NCBI GenBank assembly: GCA_020061125.1
Contig: JAGUYV010000218.1
Location: forward strand, 1-26,868
Length of the DNA stretch: 26,868 nt
Direction: 5' to 3'
Source: a bacterium
Lineage (GTDB): Bacteria; UBP15; UBA6099; DSWB01
In this document: piece by piece, positions 1-11,285 of the stretch
Position numbering within the stretch: the first letter of the stretch is position 1
Layout: each line of letters opens with the position of its first letter
Position numbers and translations under genes: made by a program
The notes under the pieces: model-generated
What the model saw: only the letters and a program-made list of their open reading frames with translations
Told to the model about the DNA's origin: nothing
The model's database searches: none

Positions 1-63
1 ATCATCAGGCAACTTTGCGAACTGCCGCCCCTGGCCGCGTCGCTCCGGGGGGCCGCTAAATGA
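1..63 (+). CDS. C-terminal tail of an upstream gene (partial)
   Basis: Frame 1 is open from the first base to a TGA at 61-63 and encodes a 20-residue tail ending in LRGAAK. That stop overlaps the ATG of the next gene as ATGA, the usual arrangement of translationally coupled genes, which is the main reason to believe this frame. Frame 3 is also open up to a TAA at 57-59, so the choice is not certain. Too little is present to name the product. Confidence 0.45.
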   Translation: MIRQLCELPPLAASLRGAAK

Positions 64-809
64 CACAGCACTCATGCCGCATCATCGCAACTGGCGCCGT
101 GGATCTGCATCACGCTCCCGATCCAGCCCTGGAACTGCGCGTTGCCGCTCACGCGCGCGCCATAGACGATGTGTGGAATCAGGCGCGATCCAAAGGCGAC
201 ATCCTGCTCTACAACGGCTCCCTGCTGGTGTACACCAGACATGAAACGCTCTCGGGCCGAACGCGCGTAACCGGACATTTCGCGGAATACAAGCACTTCA
301 TCGCTCACCGCAACGATCCCGCCCTTGGCCTGGACATCAACCCCATTGGCGTAAGCGGTCTTGTCACCGGACTGGACAGGGGCGAGCCGTTCACCGTGTT
401 CGCGCGCCGCGCGCCCAACTGCAGCACATACGGCGGCTATTATGAACTCGTGCCCTCGGGCGCTATCGCCCTGTGCGACGCGCTCCCGGACGGCCGCGTG
501 GATTTCGCCCGAAGGCTGCTCCTTGAATTCGAGGAAGAAGTCGGCCCTGTGCCCGAGGCCGCGCGGTGCGCGGTCTCGCCCATGGCGTTTCTGCACGACG
601 CCGCGGGCGGTGTGTACGATGTGTGCTGTCTCGTGGAAACGGATCTTGCGCCTGCATTTTTCAAAGCGCACATGTCGCAGTCAGACGAATATTCGGGCGC
701 GGAATGCGTGCCGCTTATACACGCACGCGAATTCGCCAGCGCACACATCAGCGAAATCATCCCCACAACTCTCGGAATCCTCGACGCTTTTTTTTCACAG
801 TCGAAATAA
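60..809 (+). CDS. Nudix-like hydrolase, degenerate Nudix box
   Basis: A 249-residue soluble protein with no signal peptide or membrane segment. Residues 150-162 (ARRLLLEFEEEVG) resemble the helix of the Nudix box (consensus REUxEExGU), which binds the metal and the diphosphate in enzymes that hydrolyse nucleoside diphosphates linked to another moiety. The three acidic residues E156, E159 and E160 and glycine G162 are in place, but the usual arginine before the first glutamate is L155. The PSGAI stretch at 132-136 may take the place of the upstream glycine region. The protein is longer than a minimal Nudix domain (about 140-150 residues); the first 90 residues are not recognised. The start overlaps the upstream stop by four bases, so it is probably the last gene of an operon. 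The substrate cannot be inferred, and a non-hydrolytic Nudix homologue is possible. Confidence 0.5.
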   Translation: MTQHSCRIIATGAVDLHHAPDPALELRVAAHARAIDDVWNQARSKGDILLYNGSLLVYTRHETLSGRTRVTGHFAEYKHFIAHRNDPALGLDINPIGVSGLVTGLDRGEPFTVFARRAPNCSTYGGYYELVPSGAIALCDALPDGRVDFARRLLLEFEEEVGPVPEAARCAVSPMAFLHDAAGGVYDVCCLVETDLAPAFFKAHMSQSDEYSGAECVPLIHAREFASAHISEIIPTTLGILDAFFSQSK

Positions 810-1136: not shown

Positions 1137-4100
1137 ATGCCAACAGTCGTAATTGACGGGAAAAAATACCAGACGGACGCGGGCAGGACCATACTCGAAG
1201 TCTGCCGCGAGAACGGGGTGCACATTCCCACGCTCACGGATTACCCGAATCTCGAAGCCGAGGGGTCGGGCTGGATGAGCGTGGTCGAGGTGCAGGATGT
1301 GGGCCTCACGCCCGCGCGCACCACTTTTGTGGGCGACGGCATGGTCATCAACACACAGAGCGAAAAGGTCGTGCAGACCCGGACGCGCATCCTCGAAAAA
1401 CTGCTGCAGCGCCACTATGGGGACTGCGTGCCTCCGTGCCAGGAAGCCTGTCCCGCGCACATAGACATCCAGGGCTATCTGCAACTCGTAGCCAAGGGCC
1501 GCCCGCACGAGGCCATGGAACTGATCCGCGAGACCAACCCCATTCCGTCCATCATCGGCCGCATCTGCCCGCGGCCGTGCGAGGCCGCTTGCCGCCGCAA
1601 CCTGGTGGACCAGTCCCTGGCCATCTGCTGGATTAAACGCTTCGCGGGCGACAAGAGCCTGCTCAACGGCGGACGCCCGCTGCCTAAAATGGAACCCAAA
1701 AACGGGATTAAAGTCGCCATCATCGGCTCCGGCCCGGCCGGTCTGTCCGCCGCGTTCTATCTGCGCAAGATGGGCTATGAGCCGACCATCTTCGAGGCCC
1801 TGCCCAAGCCCGGCGGCATGCTCCGCTTCGGCATCCCCGAATACCGTCTGCCCAAAACCGGCGTGCTCGACAAGGAAATCAAGACCATCACCGACATGGG
1901 CGTGAAGCTCATCTGCAACAAGAAATTCGGAACCGACATTACTTTTGACAGCCTCAAGAAAGACGGGTTCAATGCCACCCTCATCGCCGTGGGCGCGCAC
2001 AAGAGCTTCGGACTGGGCCTGGACGGCGAGGATAAACTGTCCGGCATTTATCTGGGCATTGATTTCCTGCGAGACCTGGGACTGGGCAAGAAACCCAAGG
2101 TCGGCGAAAAAGCCGTCATCATCGGCGGCGGCAACACGGCCATGGACGCATGCCGCACGGCTCTGCGCCTGGGCGCGAAAAAGGTCACTGTGGTGTACCG
2201 CCGCTCGCGCACCGAGATGCCCGCCAGCGTGTGGGAAATCGAAGAAGCCGAACAGGAAGGCGTGCGCTTCCACTACCTGGCCGCGCCCATCGCGCTCAAA
2301 GGCGAAGGCGGGAAAGTCACGGCCATCCGCTGCATCAAAATGGCGCTCGGGGAACCCGACGCCAGCGGACGCCGCCGCCCCGTGCCGCAGCCCGGCTCCG
2401 AGTTCGACATCGAGTGCGACACCGTGATCTCCGCAATTGGCCAGGGACCGGACCTGTCCTTCATGTCGGAGAAAGGCAACGCCCTGCCCGCCAAACAGGA
2501 ACTCACCACGCAGCGCGGCAACCGCATCACCGCGTGCCAGCAGACCATGAGCACCAGCGTGCCCGGCGTATTCACGGCCGGCGACTGCCAGCGCGGCGCC
2601 GCCACCGCCATCTGGGCCGTGTCCGACGGACGCAAGGCCGCGCTCGCCATGGACCAGTATCTGCGCACCGGCCAGGTCGAAAAGCCGAAACGCAAATTCA
2701 CATTCAAGAAGGCGCAGGAACTCAAGGACATGGACCCGGCCGAGTTCGCGCACTTCGAGCGCAGAAACAAGGCTCACATGTTCTGCCTGCGGCCCGATGA
2801 ACGCAACACCAACTTCAGCGAGATTGAACAGGGATTTGACGATCACACCGCAGCCGAGGAAGCCACGCGCTGCCTGGAATGCGGATGCCGCGCGGGCGAC
2901 TACTGCGTGCTGCGCGACCTGGCCGACGAACTCAATGTCAAACAGCCCGAGATGGAGCAGGGCTTTGAGAAGCAATGGCCGAACCGCTCCATGGTGGTGG
3001 AGCGCGACCCCAACAAGTGCATCCGCTGCGGTCTGTGCGACGAAGTGTGCCGCACGGTCATGCACATCGGCGCGCTCGGGCGCAGCATGGATTCAGGAGT
3101 GCCGCCCCAGTTCTTCGACCAGAACCTGTGCGTGTCCTGCGGACACTGCATCGAGGTGTGTCCCGTGGGCGCCATCGTGTTCAACTCCAGCATCAAGCCG
3201 GACAAGACCACGACTACATTCTGCCCCTACTGCGGCGTGGGCTGCGAGCTGCATGTGAACACCCGAGGCGATCTCATCCTGAATGCCACCGCTGGCAACG
3301 GCCCAGCCAACCGCGGCGCGGCCTGCATCAAGGGCCGATTCGGACTCGAATTCGTCAGCTCGCCCGAGCGCCTCACGACCCCGCTCATCCGCAAGAAAGG
3401 CAAACTCGAACCCGCCACTTGGGACGAGGCACTCTCTCTGGTCGCCTCGAAATTCAAGAAATACAAGGGCAAAGAGTTCGGCCTGTTCGCTTCCGCCAAG
3501 GTGACGAACGAAGAAAACTACCTCATGCAGAAATTCGCGCGCGCCGTACAGAAAACCAACAATGTGGACCACTGCGCGCGCCTGTGCCACGCCAGCACCG
3601 TGGCCGGCCTGGCCAACACCCTCGGCTCCGGCGCCATGACCAATTCCATCAACGAAATCTCCGATGCTTCGTGCATCTTCGCCATCGGCTCAAACACCAC
3701 CAAGGCGCACCCGGTCATGGGCTCGCTCATCAAGGGCGCGGCCAAAAAAGGCTCAAAACTCATCGTAGCCAATCCCAAGCGCATTGAGCTTTGCAACTAC
3801 TCCACGCTCTTCATGCAGCATCATCCGGGCACGGATGTAGCCCTGGTCATGGGCATGCTCCATCACATCTTCAAAAAGGGACTCCAAAACGACAAGTTCA
3901 TCGAGGAGCGCACAGAGAATTTCGAGGCGTTCAAGGAATCTCTCAAGGCGTTCGACCTGAAGACCGTATCCAAAATCACCGGCGTGCCCGCGGACCTCAT
4001 CGCCAGAGCCGCCGAGATCTACGCCACAAGCGAGACCTCGTCCGTGGTGTACTCCATGGGCATCACCCAGCACAGCCACGGCACCGAAAATGTGTTCGCC

Positions 4101-5231
4101 CTGGCCAACCTGGCCATGGCCACGGGCCAGATCGGCCGGCCCAGCACGGGCATCAACCCTCTGCGCGGCCAGAACAATGTGCAGGGCGCTTGCGACATGG
4201 GCGCGCTGCCCAATGTGTACCCGGGCTACCAAGCTGTCATCAACCCCGACTTCAAGGCCAAGTTCGAAAAAGCCTGGGGCGTCAAGGGCCTGGACGACAA
4301 GATCGGCCTCACCGTCACGCAAATGCTCGGCCCCGAGGGCAAGGATCTCAAAGCCGTGTACATCATCGGCGAGAACCCGGCCATGAGCGAACCGGACTGC
4401 ACCCACGCACGCAAAGAACTTCAGGACATCGAGTTCCTTGTGGTGCAGGACATCTTCCTCACCGAGACGGCAATTTACGCGGATGTGGTGCTGCCCGCGG
4501 CCGCGTTTGCGGAAAAAGACGGGACATTCACCAACACCGAGCGCCGCGTGCAACTTCTGCGCCAGTGCGTCAAACCCGTGGGCGACGCCATCGAGGACTG
4601 GAAGATCTTCGGCATGCTCGCCAAAAAGATGGGCGTCAAGGGCTTCGACTTCAAGAGCGCCAAAGAAATCATGGAAGAGGTCGCGAGCGTGACACCGAGC
4701 TACGGCGGCATCACGCACGAGCGCATCGCCGAAACCGGCCTGCACTGGCCCTGCCCCACCAAGGATCACCCTGGCACGCCCTACCTGCACGCCACGGCTT
4801 TCCCACGCCCCAGCGGCCGCGCCCTTTTCTCGGCCCTCGAATACAAGCCCTCCAAGGAACTGCCGGACGACGACTATCCGCTGTACCTCACCACGGGCCG
4901 CAGTCTGTATCACTTCCACACAGCCACCATGAGCCGCAAGAATGTGGCCACCAATTACATGCACCCCGAAGAGCTGGTGCAGATCAATCCCGAGGACGCG
5001 GCAAGACTCAAGATCGAGGACGGAGCGCTCGTCACGATCACTTCGCGCAGAGGCGCCGTAACCTGCCGCTGCGAAGTGACAAACAAAGTGGCCCCGGGCC
5101 TCACCTTCATGACATTCCACTTCGCCGAGGCCTGCGCCAATGTGCTCACCAATAAGGCCCTCGACCCCATCGCCAGAATCCCCGAATTCAAGGTCTGCGC
5201 GGTCAAGGTCGAACCCGCGGCCCAGGCGTAG
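1137..5231 (+). CDS. formate dehydrogenase alpha subunit fused to a GltD-type NAD(P)H oxidoreductase
   Basis: A 1364-residue cytoplasmic multidomain enzyme predicted to couple formate/CO2 to NAD(P)H. Order: residues 1-90, a [2Fe-2S] ferredoxin-like fold whose four cluster cysteines are replaced (T34, G45, S48, R61); 95-155, GltD-type iron-sulfur region (C97, C101, C105, C144, C148, C152); about 190-510, flavoprotein with FAD motif GSGPAG at 197-202 and a second Rossmann motif GGGN at 330-333 followed by a VYRRSR...MPA stretch typical of NADPH-binding GltD-like proteins; two 4Fe-4S motifs (C628/631/634/638 and C665/668/671/675); then the molybdopterin domain with C696/C699/C703/C730 as its 4Fe-4S ligands. 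The active-site motif ARLCH puts C817 where E. coli FdhF has selenocysteine, followed by the conserved H818. The start is preceded by GGAAAGGA. No diaphorase or membrane subunit is adjacent, which suggests a self-contained enzyme. Physiological direction is unknown. Confidence 0.9.
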   Translation: MPTVVIDGKKYQTDAGRTILEVCRENGVHIPTLTDYPNLEAEGSGWMSVVEVQDVGLTPARTTFVGDGMVINTQSEKVVQTRTRILEKLLQRHYGDCVPPCQEACPAHIDIQGYLQLVAKGRPHEAMELIRETNPIPSIIGRICPRPCEAACRRNLVDQSLAICWIKRFAGDKSLLNGGRPLPKMEPKNGIKVAIIGSGPAGLSAAFYLRKMGYEPTIFEALPKPGGMLRFGIPEYRLPKTGVLDKEIKTITDMGVKLICNKKFGTDITFDSLKKDGFNATLIAVGAHKSFGLGLDGEDKLSGIYLGIDFLRDLGLGKKPKVGEKAVIIGGGNTAMDACRTALRLGAKKVTVVYRRSRTEMPASVWEIEEAEQEGVRFHYLAAPIALKGEGGKVTAIRCIKMALGEPDASGRRRPVPQPGSEFDIECDTVISAIGQGPDLSFMSEKGNALPAKQELTTQRGNRITACQQTMSTSVPGVFTAGDCQRGAATAIWAVSDGRKAALAMDQYLRTGQVEKPKRKFTFKKAQELKDMDPAEFAHFERRNKAHMFCLRPDERNTNFSEIEQGFDDHTAAEEATRCLECGCRAGDYCVLRDLADELNVKQPEMEQGFEKQWPNRSMVVERDPNKCIRCGLCDEVCRTVMHIGALGRSMDSGVPPQFFDQNLCVSCGHCIEVCPVGAIVFNSSIKPDKTTTTFCPYCGVGCELHVNTRGDLILNATAGNGPANRGAACIKGRFGLEFVSSPERLTTPLIRKKGKLEPATWDEALSLVASKFKKYKGKEFGLFASAKVTNEENYLMQKFARAVQKTNNVDHCARLCHASTVAGLANTLGSGAMTNSINEISDASCIFAIGSNTTKAHPVMGSLIKGAAKKGSKLIVANPKRIELCNYSTLFMQHHPGTDVALVMGMLHHIFKKGLQNDKFIEERTENFEAFKESLKAFDLKTVSKITGVPADLIARAAEIYATSETSSVVYSMGITQHSHGTENVFALANLAMATGQIGRPSTGINPLRGQNNVQGACDMGALPNVYPGYQAVINPDFKAKFEKAWGVKGLDDKIGLTVTQMLGPEGKDLKAVYIIGENPAMSEPDCTHARKELQDIEFLVVQDIFLTETAIYADVVLPAAAFAEKDGTFTNTERRVQLLRQCVKPVGDAIEDWKIFGMLAKKMGVKGFDFKSAKEIMEEVASVTPSYGGITHERIAETGLHWPCPTKDHPGTPYLHATAFPRPSGRALFSALEYKPSKELPDDDYPLYLTTGRSLYHFHTATMSRKNVATNYMHPEELVQINPEDAARLKIEDGALVTITSRRGAVTCRCEVTNKVAPGLTFMTFHFAEACANVLTNKALDPIARIPEFKVCAVKVEPAAQA

Positions 5232-5516: not shown

Positions 5517-8500
5517 TTACGGTTTTGCGAATATCACCGTTACATTGTCGGCCAGAACCTTGATTGCATAGCCATGCCAGGGCACAAGCGGGAAGAGTGA
5601 GCCAGCCTGCCCAGGCACAAATGCCTGGCGGCCTGGGTCGTAGAACCAAATCCCAGCGCTGATCAGCCCCGTAGACACGGCCTGGGAAAGCGGAGCCGGA
5701 GCGCCGGACGCTTGCTTTACGGAGATGTAATCGTCGCTCCAGAAAATGTTGGACGGATAAGGATTTGCAATGCCGTTCCAGCCGCGCGGCAGGGCTATCG
5801 CAAAGGTGTCACTCGTAATGGGCTGCAAGCCGGCCAACGCCGGAATCGCGCCGGATTCCGGCTGATAGATCCAGTAGGCTTTTGCCGGAACCATGTCCGG
5901 ACCGGATACGGAGATGATCCTTGGCGGCGAACAAGAGAAGATCTGGTATCCTGCCGTGACGAGTGCGGATTGCGCGTTCCGGACATCCGTCGTGGTGTGC
6001 GGGACCGAGAACAGATTCCAGCCTGCGGTAAACGGCATCTGGTTCCGGGGGATGGCCGTTTGGTGTTCAAACGAGCAGTTCCCGGCCTGGTCGCAGGCGA
6101 ACAGCGTGTAATAGAATATCGTGCCGTTCGCAAGGCCCGTGTCGTTGTACGCCTCGCTTGTGCCCGAGTAGACCTGTACGCCGTCCGAAGGTGTGGCGGG
6201 AAAAGCCGTGGTTGAGCGGATCAGGCGGCAGAGAGAGAAGTCGGCGTCGTCTGGGTTTTTCCATGCCAGCGATACGGCCGAATCAACAGGCATTGCAATG
6301 AAATTTTCAGGAGCGCCGGGCGGCGTTACATCGAAAAGCGTGGGTTGCGCATCCCTTGTTATTGAGTTGGATTCCTCTTGTCCCAGAGAATCCATTGCGC
6401 GCACGGCAAAGGTATGCGTTGCTCCGTTCGGTAAATTTGAAATCATGGTTTCCAGCACACCGCTGACCTGGGCTTGCGGACTTGCGAAATTCAACGGGGT
6501 TCCCTGAAGCGCGTAATAGATGTTGTAGATCACGGGCGTGGCGTGGTCTCCCGCAGCCGGCCAGGACAGACGCACCTGGCCTCCAAGTCCCGTGTCTTGC
6601 GCATCCGCTATGCCGGAGAACTCGGGAGGGATTATGTCGTACACGAATCCGTTGGAGCGCACAGGCTCGCTGAACTTGCCGGTCAGCTTTTCTGCTTTCA
6701 CCCAAAGATAATAAAAATGTCCATGACTAAGGCGGCCTGTGAGGTCCACGACATAATGAGAAAACGGGCCGGTCATGATCCAGTCCTGCACATCCATGGT
6801 TTGCGTGGCTGATGTGTGAGAACTGACGGCTATCCAGTACCGGTCCGCGAATGTGGAAGGGGTCCAGGACATGGAAATCATTTCGGTGGAGGTTGCGACC
6901 TGGTCGGTCCAATGGCCGTCATAAACCAATCGGGGCGCGGGCAGAATGGAAGTATCAATCATTTGTCCGTTGGAACAGGTGGGCGGGCCTGAAAGGCCCG
7001 CGCTGTTCATTGCTGCTACAGTCACATAATAGGAAGCGCCGCCGGCGAGGGTCAGATCGTTCACGGTGATGAAAGTGTTGGTGGCCGTGAGGCCATGAGC
7101 CACATCCGTGCTCCAGGCGGTCGTGCCGATGGATACTGCGTAGTATGCAATGCCGCTATCTTCGTCCTCGGCGGCTCCCCAGTTCGCGGAAATGCTGTCA
7201 AGAGATTGATTGTAACTGATGTCGCTGCCCAGCCCGTCGTTTACGAAGGGTATGGCGCCAGGCGGCGTGGCGTCAAGGGCCATGCCGTTGGACACAATAG
7301 GCGTCGTGTAATACCCGGCGCCGGACCGCGCGCGCACGGTGATGTAATATGTCTGGCCCGGCTGCATGTTGTACACGCCGCTGTGGGAAGTTGAGACGCC
7401 GTTTGACAGTTCGCTGACTGTGACCTGGGCGCCTCCGGGCGTGGTTCCGATTTTGTACCTGTACTCGATTATTCCGGATTCCGGATCCGTGGCAGGATCC
7501 CAGTTGGCGCTGTACTTGGCGTCACCCGTGAAATCCTTGTCGGCAGGGCCGAGGCCGTCCCGGATTGCGGCCGGGGGTAGCGGCACGGTTGTGTCAATTG
7601 TTGTCGTGCGGTCCAGGGTGCCGGTAGCCGTCAGCCCCGCGCCGTTTACTGACACAAGACGGTATGTGTAGGTTTCCCCGTTGACCACGCTTATGTCGGA
7701 CCAGCTCTGGGTAGAGGGGTTACGGGTCTGAATCAGCGCAAATTCTCCGGTTCCCGTTGCGCGGTAAATTCGCGTTTCCGACAGCCTGCTGTGCGGGTCG
7801 CTGGACAAATCCCAATACAGGAACACGGTGTTCGTGGTTGTAAAAGCCGCAAGCGGATCTATGTTCACGGCAGAAGGAGGCGTGTAGTCAAGTTTATATT
7901 CAATGGTCTGCGTGGGGTTCCGGTTGCCTGCATTGTCCTCGGAGAACAGGGTGGCGAGATACGCTCCTTGCTGATCCAAAGCTATGGGCGCATTATATGT
8001 GAGCCAATTGTGGCTGATGAAGCTGGACATACTCGAAGGCGTAGTTCCCCATTTATCCTTGCCATTGATGCCGTCACCCTTGTTCACGCCCGCAACAGGA
8101 TAGCTCAATATGCCCGAAACTTTAAAATTCCACACTATAAGGCCATTGGGATGCAGCACGATCTGGAATGTGGACGGATTGGTGGTGTATCCGCTGTAAT
8201 AGACTTTTTCCCATTGAACAATGAAACGGTCGGGATTGGAAAGGCGCTTGTAGAATACCGCGGAATCCGCTCGGATGGAGAAGAGGTTGGCAAGGGCTGC
8301 GATTGTGTACGCGAAGTCCGCGCTTGGGAATGAGGAAGGCGTGGAAGTTCCGGAGTATGAAAAGCTGACAAACCCGTTGCGGAAAATTCTGATTGTGTCA
8401 AATGTCGATCCATAGAACGGGAACGAGAATCCCAGGGAAATGCCGTCAACCGATGCAATGGAACTGGTGAGGCCCGTGTTTGTGCCGTCCGAGATCTCGA

Positions 8501-11285
8501 TCCAGGAGTAAGCGTTGCTCGCCAACTCGTAGCCGCCGGACGACACGGCATAGAATGTTGATGCCAGGCCAGAACCGCTGTCCATGGCCGACAGGGAGAG
8601 CTGTCCCGGTGTGAGATACCAACCGTTTTGTGCGGGATCACCCGGCGTAAGGGTAGCCGTTGTCACCGGCGGCATGGTGTCCGCGGTCATGGTGAGCGCT
8701 GCGCTGTAATCACTGCTGTTGCTTGCGCCGCTCGATGCGCGAACTCGCCAGTGGTAAGTAACCCCATGCATGAGCGCTTGCGGACCGCTTGCGTCCAACT
8801 GGTATGTTTGTGTGGCGATGCCGTAAATTTGAGCGTGAATCGTGGAAAACGAAGCATCGGCGCTGATTTGAATGTCATATGTCACTTCGCCGTCTGCGGT
8901 TCCGTTCCACATCAGAACCGGGTCCGCTTTCACGAATGTCCCGTTCGGAGCTGTGGGCTGCGGGACCGGAATGCTGGGATCCACTCTTGTGAAGACCTGG
9001 GATGACTCCGCGGAAAGCCCGGCCTGGTTGTATGTCACGATTTTATAGGTGTATGTTGCGCCGAACTCCAGAGCCGTATCGGTCCACGCTGTGCTGCTTC
9101 CGGCCGCGGCCGTGTGGACCAGGGTGAATGGCCCTGCGTCCGTCGCGCGCAGGATCTGGTATTCGAGCAAGGGCGCTGCGTAATCCGACCCTGGAGAACC
9201 CGTCCAGTTGATCGTCACGCCGGTGTCCGTTGCAAAAGTGAACAACGGCAAAGCCGACGGCTGCGCCGGAACCGGCGGTGTGGTATCAATGGGAACTTCA
9301 ACAATCAGAGGGGTCTCCGCGTTTGCCGCGGCATCCACGGAGTAAACCGAAAAGCGGTGGCGCGCGTCGCCCGAAACCGTCACGGGACCGGTGTATGCCT
9401 GTGGCTGGTTGGCGATAATGAGGCTGGAAAGGGACGCGGGCACGCTTCCATAATTCCAGGCAACGCCCTGGACGCCGTCGCCTTTGTTCACGCCAACCGT
9501 GACCGTGGTGACGCCGGCGATGCTCTTGAACGACCACACAATAAGGCCGTTCTCGTGCAGAACGACCTGAAAATGGATGGGGATGCTGCCGCCCATTTTC
9601 CTCACTCCTGCAAACTCCACCACGAACCGGTTTGGCCCGGTGAGGCTTAAATATTTGATTTGTCCTGTGCCGACCTCGAGATCGTCCCACAATGCGGCTA
9701 TGGTGTAGCCCATGGTAGGGTTCGGGAAATTGATATTGTTATACGACGCGCCAGTGTATGTAAAACTTATAAAACCGTTAGTGCAGATGTTGACGGCGCT
9801 GAAAGAACTGTCGTAAAAGGGGAAATTGAACCCAATCGGGATTCCTGTCACGGTGTTGTCGTCACCGGAAAGTCCCGTGTTTGTTCCACCCGCAGTGTCA
9901 ATCCATGCATAGCTGTTCGCGACGATCAAGGTTCCTGTTCCCACCGGGCCGGACATGGTGTAATATGTCGCGGCGACGCCCGAGCCTGCGCCATCGCTTG
10001 CGGACAGGATCATGTCGCCGGCCGTTGTGTGCCATCCGTTCAGTCCAGCCACGCCCGTGAAGCTGTCAAATGAGGTTGTGGGCGGCGTTGTGTCCACGGT
10101 GAAAGAGCGGGCCGCGGTGAACCCGCTGGTGTTGGATGCGCCGTCCCATGCGCTCACCCGCCAGGAATAAACGCTCCCTTCAGCCAATTGTTCCGGCGGT
10201 AATCCCGATAGGGTGTACGAAGCGGATCCGATGTTCAGGATATCCATGTCCACGGCGGAAAAAGAGGGATCCAGCGAGATTTGCAACTGATATGCGACGC
10301 CGCTGGAGTCCGTCACCGGGGACCATGCAAATTGTTGCAGCGCTGATGTGGCGTAACCAGCATCCGCGGGTGAAATCAGCCCCGGCATGGGCGGCGCCTG
10401 GGTGTCGGCCACGCTCTGGTAAGTCCAGGGGTTTGGGACAGTGCCGGTTGCAAGCGCGTTCCCCACCAAATCCGTGCCAGTGATTTGCGCGGTGTACACT
10501 CCCGCCGGTGCGGGCGCCGCGTGCGTCCAGGTGGCCGCGTCGCTGCCGGCATTCCATTCCACTGCCCACGGTCCGATTTCCGGCGTCACTGATATCGCCA
10601 CCGACGCAGGATTCATGGCTTCGCTGAACGCCACGGAAACGACTGCGTCATGCGCAACTTCGGTTTCCTGGTCCGCTGGGGCCGTGGATAAAATCTGTGG
10701 AGGCGTGGTGTCGCTTTGCACAAGAATGTCGTCAATATGCCAGCCCAGAAAATTGTTCGATACTTCATCAATCGAATCAAAATAAAATCTTATTTGGATG
10801 ACATTACCCGCATAGCTTGATAAATCGAGTGTCTTCTCTCGCCACTGATTCATCGCGTCGCCGCTTAGCTGTTGCAGGGTAATCCACGAGGATGAAGGAG
10901 TCGGCTTGATCTGAATGATTCGCTTATCGTAACCCGTTCCCGTGGTTTCGGTCTGGTAGAAATACCAGAATGAAAGCTGTGCGTTCGAGTATGCGGTCAG
11001 ATCTATCTGCGGCGAGGTGAGATACCCGCTGGTTGTGCTGCCGGTGCTGTAGGTGCATGTCAGGTCAACGCCATAATACCAGCTTGTTGAGGGAGAATGA
11101 CTGTGCGCACAGGGTGATGCGCCGTCGGCCATGTGCCACAGACCGGTTGCGGTCCATCCGTTCTGGCCGGATTCCATATCGTCGGACCATGGCAGCGCAT
11201 ACGCCGAGGCGCACACAATCATCGCAAATGCGCATACGATCAACGCACATTTTGCATGTGGACGCCCAGATGCATGTCCGCTCAT
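5517..11285 (-). CDS. giant secreted FN3/Ig-like multidomain protein
   Basis: 1922 residues. A signal peptide (1-30, hydrophobic core at about 13-28, probable cleavage after AYA at 28-30) predicts export. About 31-192 is a jelly-roll/MAM-like domain ending in a GWHIDDI motif; 193-290 is a SbsA-type Ig-like domain; FN3-like sandwiches follow at about 295-397, 668-868 and 1135-1747. Two longer units (about 400-665 and 871-1133) look like OmpL47-type domains (NGW, then SGxxxTxY) interrupted by a module of about 175 residues carrying FPFY, NGFxSF and GVNKGDG motifs. The last 170 residues form a separate module with repeated GWN motifs and a PWHGYAIKVL-like end. There is no membrane anchor, LPXTG or catalytic motif, so adhesion or an envelope structural role is a guess. 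An AAGGAAA ribosome site lies 8 bases before the ATG. By eye the gene looks less GC-rich than its neighbours. Confidence 0.85.
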   Translation of the reverse strand: MSGHASGRPHAKCALIVCAFAMIVCASAYALPWSDDMESGQNGWTATGLWHMADGASPCAHSHSPSTSWYYGVDLTCTYSTGSTTSGYLTSPQIDLTAYSNAQLSFWYFYQTETTGTGYDKRIIQIKPTPSSSWITLQQLSGDAMNQWREKTLDLSSYAGNVIQIRFYFDSIDEVSNNFLGWHIDDILVQSDTTPPQILSTAPADQETEVAHDAVVSVAFSEAMNPASVAISVTPEIGPWAVEWNAGSDAATWTHAAPAPAGVYTAQITGTDLVGNALATGTVPNPWTYQSVADTQAPPMPGLISPADAGYATSALQQFAWSPVTDSSGVAYQLQISLDPSFSAVDMDILNIGSASYTLSGLPPEQLAEGSVYSWRVSAWDGASNTSGFTAARSFTVDTTPPTTSFDSFTGVAGLNGWHTTAGDMILSASDGAGSGVAATYYTMSGPVGTGTLIVANSYAWIDTAGGTNTGLSGDDNTVTGIPIGFNFPFYDSSFSAVNICTNGFISFTYTGASYNNINFPNPTMGYTIAALWDDLEVGTGQIKYLSLTGPNRFVVEFAGVRKMGGSIPIHFQVVLHENGLIVWSFKSIAGVTTVTVGVNKGDGVQGVAWNYGSVPASLSSLIIANQPQAYTGPVTVSGDARHRFSVYSVDAAANAETPLIVEVPIDTTPPVPAQPSALPLFTFATDTGVTINWTGSPGSDYAAPLLEYQILRATDAGPFTLVHTAAAGSSTAWTDTALEFGATYTYKIVTYNQAGLSAESSQVFTRVDPSIPVPQPTAPNGTFVKADPVLMWNGTADGEVTYDIQISADASFSTIHAQIYGIATQTYQLDASGPQALMHGVTYHWRVRASSGASNSSDYSAALTMTADTMPPVTTATLTPGDPAQNGWYLTPGQLSLSAMDSGSGLASTFYAVSSGGYELASNAYSWIEISDGTNTGLTSSIASVDGISLGFSFPFYGSTFDTIRIFRNGFVSFSYSGTSTPSSFPSADFAYTIAALANLFSIRADSAVFYKRLSNPDRFIVQWEKVYYSGYTTNPSTFQIVLHPNGLIVWNFKVSGILSYPVAGVNKGDGINGKDKWGTTPSSMSSFISHNWLTYNAPIALDQQGAYLATLFSEDNAGNRNPTQTIEYKLDYTPPSAVNIDPLAAFTTTNTVFLYWDLSSDPHSRLSETRIYRATGTGEFALIQTRNPSTQSWSDISVVNGETYTYRLVSVNGAGLTATGTLDRTTTIDTTVPLPPAAIRDGLGPADKDFTGDAKYSANWDPATDPESGIIEYRYKIGTTPGGAQVTVSELSNGVSTSHSGVYNMQPGQTYYITVRARSGAGYYTTPIVSNGMALDATPPGAIPFVNDGLGSDISYNQSLDSISANWGAAEDEDSGIAYYAVSIGTTAWSTDVAHGLTATNTFITVNDLTLAGGASYYVTVAAMNSAGLSGPPTCSNGQMIDTSILPAPRLVYDGHWTDQVATSTEMISMSWTPSTFADRYWIAVSSHTSATQTMDVQDWIMTGPFSHYVVDLTGRLSHGHFYYLWVKAEKLTGKFSEPVRSNGFVYDIIPPEFSGIADAQDTGLGGQVRLSWPAAGDHATPVIYNIYYALQGTPLNFASPQAQVSGVLETMISNLPNGATHTFAVRAMDSLGQEESNSITRDAQPTLFDVTPPGAPENFIAMPVDSAVSLAWKNPDDADFSLCRLIRSTTAFPATPSDGVQVYSGTSEAYNDTGLANGTIFYYTLFACDQAGNCSFEHQTAIPRNQMPFTAGWNLFSVPHTTTDVRNAQSALVTAGYQIFSCSPPRIISVSGPDMVPAKAYWIYQPESGAIPALAGLQPITSDTFAIALPRGWNGIANPYPSNIFWSDDYISVKQASGAPAPLSQAVSTGLISAGIWFYDPGRQAFVPGQAGSLFPLVPWHGYAIKVLADNVTVIFAKP

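Follow-up and report, generated by a model that had tools for sequence, protein, structure and literature searches.

Gene and Domain Organization

The window, by which we mean the whole 26,868-nucleotide stretch of DNA that was analysed, contains at positions 1137–5231 of the forward strand an open reading frame that is intact and encodes a protein of 1364 aa. The domain order obtained from Pfam and NCBIfam is Fer2_4 (residues 3–75), Fer4_20 with a GltD/NfnB-like FAD/NAD(P)H module (97–510), [4Fe-4S] motifs (579–675), and FdhF (~690–1360). The features are the following.

1137–1415, forward strand: N-terminal NuoG/HydA-type [2Fe-2S] ferredoxin domain without ligands, residues 1–93 (Pfam Fer2_4, domain model)
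1236–1238, forward strand: T34 (ACG), cluster Cys1 position; Cys in all other complete domains except the truncated L180
1269–1271, forward strand: G45 (GGC), cluster Cys2 position (codon read, alignments)
1278–1280, forward strand: S48 (AGC), cluster Cys3 position; Ser also in L151 and L153
1317–1319, forward strand: R61 (CGC), cluster Cys4 position (codon read, alignments)
1413–1451, forward strand: HxxxCxxxCxxxC motif (H93, C97, C101, C105), intact (sequence, 58-fusion alignment)
1425–2666, forward strand: Fer4_20 and GltD/NfnB-like FAD/NADPH module, residues 97–510, intact (Pfam Fer4_20 and Pyr_redox_2, fold match)
2871–2906, forward strand: CxxCxCx5C cluster motif (C579, C582, C584, C590), intact (sequence, alignment)
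3018–3161, forward strand: two [4Fe-4S] clusters (C628–C675), intact (Pfam, alignment); region 621–690 is fast-evolving here
3204–5216, forward strand: FdhF molybdopterin formate dehydrogenase domain with [4Fe-4S] cluster (C696, C699, C703, C730) (TIGR01591, Pfam)
3585–3587, forward strand: C817 (TGC), Mo/W-ligand position (codon read, 58-fusion alignment)

The FdhF part scores 821.6 bits against TIGR01591 (formate dehydrogenase alpha, FdhF), for which the curated cut-off is 666.25; its Mo/W ligand is present as Cys and its [4Fe-4S] Cys quartet is complete. The GltD/NfnB-type module was identified by Pfam (Fer4_20, 72 bits; Pyr_redox_2, 118 bits) and by its fold, with a Z of 40 to NfnB (5jca_L). 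Among solved structures, the large subunits of NfnABC/StnABC transhydrogenases (9bov_A, 8oh5_C, and 9n5u_A) match best over the full length, both in sequence and in fold. The full-length structure model of the fusion has a pTM of 0.51.

Just upstream of the fusion gene, a protein of 249 aa without a Pfam match at E 1e-5 is encoded at 60–809 (forward strand). Directly downstream, at 5517–11285 on the reverse strand, lies the gene of a 1922-aa protein with fibronectin type III and bacterial Ig-like domains.

The N-Terminal Ferredoxin Domain

The initial annotation had taken residues 1–90 for a [2Fe-2S] domain with a ferredoxin fold, and this assignment, including its limits and coordinates, was right. 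Fer2_4 matches residues 3–75 with 46 bits (Pfam cut-off 22.8), and residues 1–96 match solved [2Fe-2S] domains from 9bov_A, HydA1, CpI, and complex I, the best E values being 1e-10 to 1e-8. The structure prediction that had been proposed as a check on the fold was performed on the domain alone with 42 homologues and gave a pLDDT of 85 and a pTM of 0.73; superposition on the N-terminal domain of CpI hydrogenase (6nac) gave Z 14.9 and rmsd 2.0 over 88 residues, values which support compatibility with a ferredoxin fold, short of proof, as the underlying alignment consists of Cys-bearing relatives. Profile matches and the predicted structure together confirm that the protein starts with a real NuoG/HydA-type [2Fe-2S] domain.

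The columns of T34, G45, S48, and R61 are occupied by Cys in 19/19 other sequences of the first MAFFT set, which bears out the reported replacement of the four cluster cysteines. Judged by its ligands, the domain is thus no longer a [2Fe-2S] domain, all four having been replaced. No cluster Cys was found at a shifted position in the aligned domain, where the only other Cys is C23 in the helix 'ILEVCREN'. A sequencing or frame error as the cause was rejected: the substitutions are in frame and one codon, ACG, differs from both TGC and TGT at all three positions, which scattered miscalled bases would hardly explain. In pairwise alignments, the window genome's other four Fer2_4 proteins (L001–L004) keep their cysteines; the ligand loss is therefore specific to the fusion protein and not organism-wide. 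The other Fe-S motifs are intact, as had been stated, the remaining ligands (22 cysteines and H93) all being present. Alignment and model thus confirm a fold that is kept while all four cluster ligands are lost.

Ligand Loss among Related Fusions

The survey alignment comprised 58 full-length fusions of ferredoxin, GltD-like FAD/NADPH module, and FdhF, the window protein included. The four [2Fe-2S] columns are all Cys except in the window protein, L151, L153, L180, and L164. Substitution of 4/4 ligands occurs only in the window protein, and the full loss is therefore represented by one sequence. The sisters L151 and L153 have Cys3 changed to Ser and two residues inserted before Cys1. L180 (G323:C1:3053700-3058900) is a second fusion copy, in a genome which also has an intact one; its truncated N-terminus lacks the first half of the ferredoxin domain and three ligands. 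In L164 the domain is missing since the sequence begins at that point, apparently cut by the end of a contig. Apart from this cut sequence, none of the 58 fusions deviates at any of the 23 [4Fe-4S] ligands, which serve six clusters.

In a tree calculated from the rest of the protein, the [2Fe-2S] deviations (window, L151/L153, and L180) fall in separate clades. Since it was the window protein that prompted the survey, independent support comes from the other two loss events alone; the chance of both hitting the [2Fe-2S] cluster would be ~0.02 if losses were random over the 27 ligands. Extra losses suggested by pairwise alignments (L043, L069, L071, L060, L001, and others) were dismissed as gap artefacts, and L043, L069, and L071 have all four Cys upon rechecking with MAFFT.

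Whether the loss is clade-wide had been left as a question, and the answer is no. The fusion is absent from the other genomes of the window's order (seven genomes, the window's own included), and all four Cys are present in the nearest relatives (L007, L042, L122, L123, and L130). The fusion occurs at full length in each of the three genomes from the phylum of G030, in Poribacteria, Photobacterium, and Electronema, and in roughly 45/395 genomes from the phylum to which a Desulfobulbaceae genome belongs, while a survey of 400 Chloroflexi genomes yielded no further full-length fusion. As far as tested, complete cluster loss with a kept fold is unrecorded in this fusion family.

Evolutionary Rate and Constraint

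A site was counted as conserved when 93% or more of the other fusions agree. Of such sites, the window protein is changed at 1/85 in FdhF, 2/47 in GltD, 3/33 in Fer4_20, and 5/13 in Fer2, where the five are the four ligands and G54. Within Fer2, 4/4 ligands are changed versus 1/9 other conserved sites (hypergeometric p about 0.007), in agreement with the earlier observation that the fold residues around the cluster site are kept; the FdhF and GltD counts likewise uphold the view that the protein is not in general decay. When its branch is compared with that of the remaining protein, Fer2 of the window protein has a ratio of 0.80 (median 1.88), which ranks 4 of 48, among the lowest; the domain is therefore not evolving freely. 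Relaxed constraint on the domain was tested on this basis and rejected, there being no acceleration.

Region 621–690 (window 2997–3206), the double-cluster, ferredoxin-type part, is the most accelerated of the 48 fusions with a ratio of 3.71, and region 511–620 ranks 46 of 48. Near region 621–690, H618, which is conserved in 54/55, is Ser in the window protein. The acceleration of these stretches may reflect refitting around the missing cluster.

Cysteine and Selenocysteine at the Active Site

The Mo/W-ligand codon is an in-frame TGA (Sec) in 48/58 fusions, including the nearest relatives, and TGC (Cys) in the window. In the window genome, which is 79% complete, no selB scored above its curated cut-off. 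Other fusions with an active-site Cys exist among the 58; one of them, L128, lies on a 2.1-Mb Photobacterium replicon that is absent from the PLSDB gene table. A different substitution is seen in L192 (G263:C68:24300-29000), in which Ser takes the place of the Mo/W ligand, 28 of the conserved FdhF sites are changed, and the four [2Fe-2S] Cys are kept. From its sequence, L192 is possibly a dead formate dehydrogenase heading toward an StnC-like role.

Partner Genes

In NuoG/HydA/FdsA-type proteins, the NADH-binding subunit is joined through the [2Fe-2S] cluster, an arrangement shared by complex I, bifurcating hydrogenases, transhydrogenases, and formate dehydrogenases. Partner genes were searched by tblastn with NuoF from an StnC-type locus. 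Where the flank is long enough, almost all StnC-type fusions have NuoF as their immediate upstream neighbour. None was found beside the fusions with strong FdhF scores (window, L007, L042, L122, L123, L128, L130, and L043), some of whose upstream flanks are short, and at a further 50 loci, mostly with 0.4–1.5 kb of flank, NuoF matches occurred only inside the fusion itself. Apparent NuoF hits in L143–L192 were discarded, as they correspond to ferredoxin residues within the fusion and not to a NuoF gene. The window contains no NuoF/StnB/FdsB-like gene. NuoF-like genes are present elsewhere in the window genome, and an unlinked NuoF-like partner of the fusion is conceivable.

Comparison with Known Systems

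All of the domains are known individually, and their arrangement corresponds to an StnC in which the formate dehydrogenase is live. StnC/NfnA of NfnABC-type transhydrogenases (8oh5_C, 9bov_A, and 9n5u_A) has the same order of Fer2, GltD-like FAD/NADPH module, cluster domains, and FdhF-like domain. There, the FdhF part is catalytically dead, a NuoF-like partner is encoded by an adjacent gene, and electrons make use of the [2Fe-2S] cluster, whereas in the window FdhF scores as a true formate dehydrogenase, NuoF is missing, and the [2Fe-2S] site is lost. In StnC, NADPH/FAD electrons reach the StnAB module via clusters including the [2Fe-2S] cluster C4, the path being listed as C7, C6, C5, C4 ([2Fe-2S]), and C3, with the FdhF branch dead; contacts in the StnC tetramer include the N-terminal domains (PMC10482914). 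The His-Cys motif HxxxCxxxCxxxC has been described for StnC (PMC7483475).

FdsA of the NAD-dependent formate dehydrogenase of R. capsulatus (6tg9_A) resembles the window protein in that a single chain carries Fer2, the His-Cys motif, [4Fe-4S] clusters, and FdhF; unlike it, FdsA has no GltD module and its electrons pass through the [2Fe-2S] cluster A5 to FdsB. The chain of this formate dehydrogenase is Mo-A1-A2-A3-A5-B6-FMN, in which A5 is the N-terminal [2Fe-2S] cluster and B6 resides in the NuoF-like FdsB, while the His-Cys cluster A4 is off the direct chain and within transfer distance of A3 (PMC7171172).

The closest counterparts are the stand-alone, full-length Fer2-GltD-FdhF fusions (L007, L042, L122, L123, L128, and L143–L192) of Poribacteria, Photobacterium, Electronema, and the phylum of the Desulfobulbaceae genome. 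They share the formate dehydrogenase-like active site and have no NuoF gene in the examined flanks, but almost all have the four Cys and most have Sec, both of which are absent from the window protein. A limited search of the open-access literature found no paper on the stand-alone fusion.

Domains that outlast their cofactors have precedents. The thioredoxin-like domain of StnB (StnB/HndC) has lost two of four Cys and is retained (PMC7483475). The mFDX-like protein of plant complex I (C1-FDX bridge) has no bound cluster, and complex I supercomplexes depend on it (PMC10069907). Like the window domain, it is a ferredoxin fold outlasting cluster binding, with a structural role; it differs in being a separate subunit of mitochondrial ferredoxin type, with one to four Cys lost, in an unrelated complex.

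Proposed Electron Path and Alternative Explanations

We consider it probable that the window protein is a stand-alone formate:NADP(H) oxidoreductase which has lost its [2Fe-2S] exit port and kept the ferredoxin fold as a scaffold. Such an enzyme would act on formate and NADP(H), with electrons running between the Mo/W site and NADP(H) through the FdhF [4Fe-4S] cluster, the two ferredoxin-type [4Fe-4S] clusters, the His-Cys cluster, the GltD-side clusters, and FAD. In the parent family, the N-terminal [2Fe-2S] cluster would be a side exit to a NuoF-type NADH-binding partner, and in the window enzyme this port would have been lost through replacement of the four cysteines, no partner gene adjoining. 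By analogy, the [2Fe-2S] position would then lie off the main path: the cluster layouts of the R. capsulatus enzyme and StnC, when combined, imply that an enzyme with live FdhF and GltD could bypass it. This suggests that the [2Fe-2S] cluster is an electron side exit which is dispensable for a one-protein enzyme. The ferredoxin domain is envisaged to pack against the neighbouring cluster domains, for which reason, we propose, its fold has been kept, and it probably makes subunit contacts as well. The initial annotation had suggested a structural or docking element; retention for a reason other than electron transfer stands and a structural role appears likely, but the usual docking subunit has no gene in the window, which makes scaffold or oligomer contact the better reading than docking.

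Several observations weigh against a sealed port, the chief one being that all 53 judgeable NuoF-less relatives (excluding L151, L153, L180, and L164) carry the four Cys; the cluster thus has some use there, e.g., toward an unlinked partner or ferredoxin. NuoF-like genes exist elsewhere in the window genome, and the full loss is seen in a single sequence. Moreover, if the order given for StnC is taken literally, C4 connects the ferredoxin-type clusters to the GltD side, and the wire would be broken without it. On that literal order (PMC10482914), the [2Fe-2S] cluster would be on the sole GltD–FdhF route and its loss would leave an NADPH diaphorase and a formate dehydrogenase using outside carriers, e.g., ferredoxin. 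The acceleration of region 621–690 beside the lost site, the strongest of 48, looks as if rewiring had taken place and fits this uncoupling. However, the His-Cys cluster of the R. capsulatus enzyme is within transfer distance of A3, bypassing the [2Fe-2S] cluster (PMC7171172), and the intact ligands on both sides together with the barely changed conserved sites of FdhF and GltD would be unexpected in an uncoupled protein, which leaves uncoupling unlikely.

Still less probable is that the domain has acquired a new binding role, with a different metal, a small molecule, or another protein partner in the place of the lost cluster. The slow evolution of the domain would suit such a role and the plant clusterless ferredoxin holds a single metal ion (PMC10069907), but T, G, S, and R make no obvious metal site, no new conserved feature is recognisable from one sequence, and no partner gene adjoins. 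The least probable of the explanations is early decay, by which the gene would be losing its function with the ferredoxin domain going first. It is favoured by the single occurrence in a fragmented, 79% complete genome and by the replacement of Sec with Cys where no selB exceeds the cut-off. The frame is nevertheless intact over 1364 aa, FdhF and GltD are changed at hardly any conserved site, the Fer2 domain is not accelerated, and an active-site Cys is also found in other fusions.

The reading may extend beyond the window protein. We see an even chance that single-chain formate:NADP(H) oxidoreductases of this kind are widespread as a class, with a wire that bypasses the [2Fe-2S] cluster, and that three or more clades have lost this ancestral exit port. 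Were this true, the window protein would be the cleanest natural knock-out of the port, with the cofactor gone, the fold kept, and the six-cluster wire intact. A fold without its cofactor separates the structural from the electron-carrying role of the domain, and the protein offers a ready test of which clusters make the formate–NADPH wire. Soluble single-chain formate:NADPH enzymes would also have practical appeal for reducing CO2 and regenerating NADPH.

Neighbourhoods of Related Fusion Genes

The Photobacterium fusion (L128) is followed by a formate/nitrite transporter gene with CBS domains, a formate-related setting that favours the proposed activity, and the Poribacteria fusion gene adjoins [NiFe]-hydrogenase genes. 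Beside another fusion gene, an ORF (L133:9143-10582) combines an EF-Tu-type GTP-binding domain with a sulfatase C-terminus and may be a misassembly.
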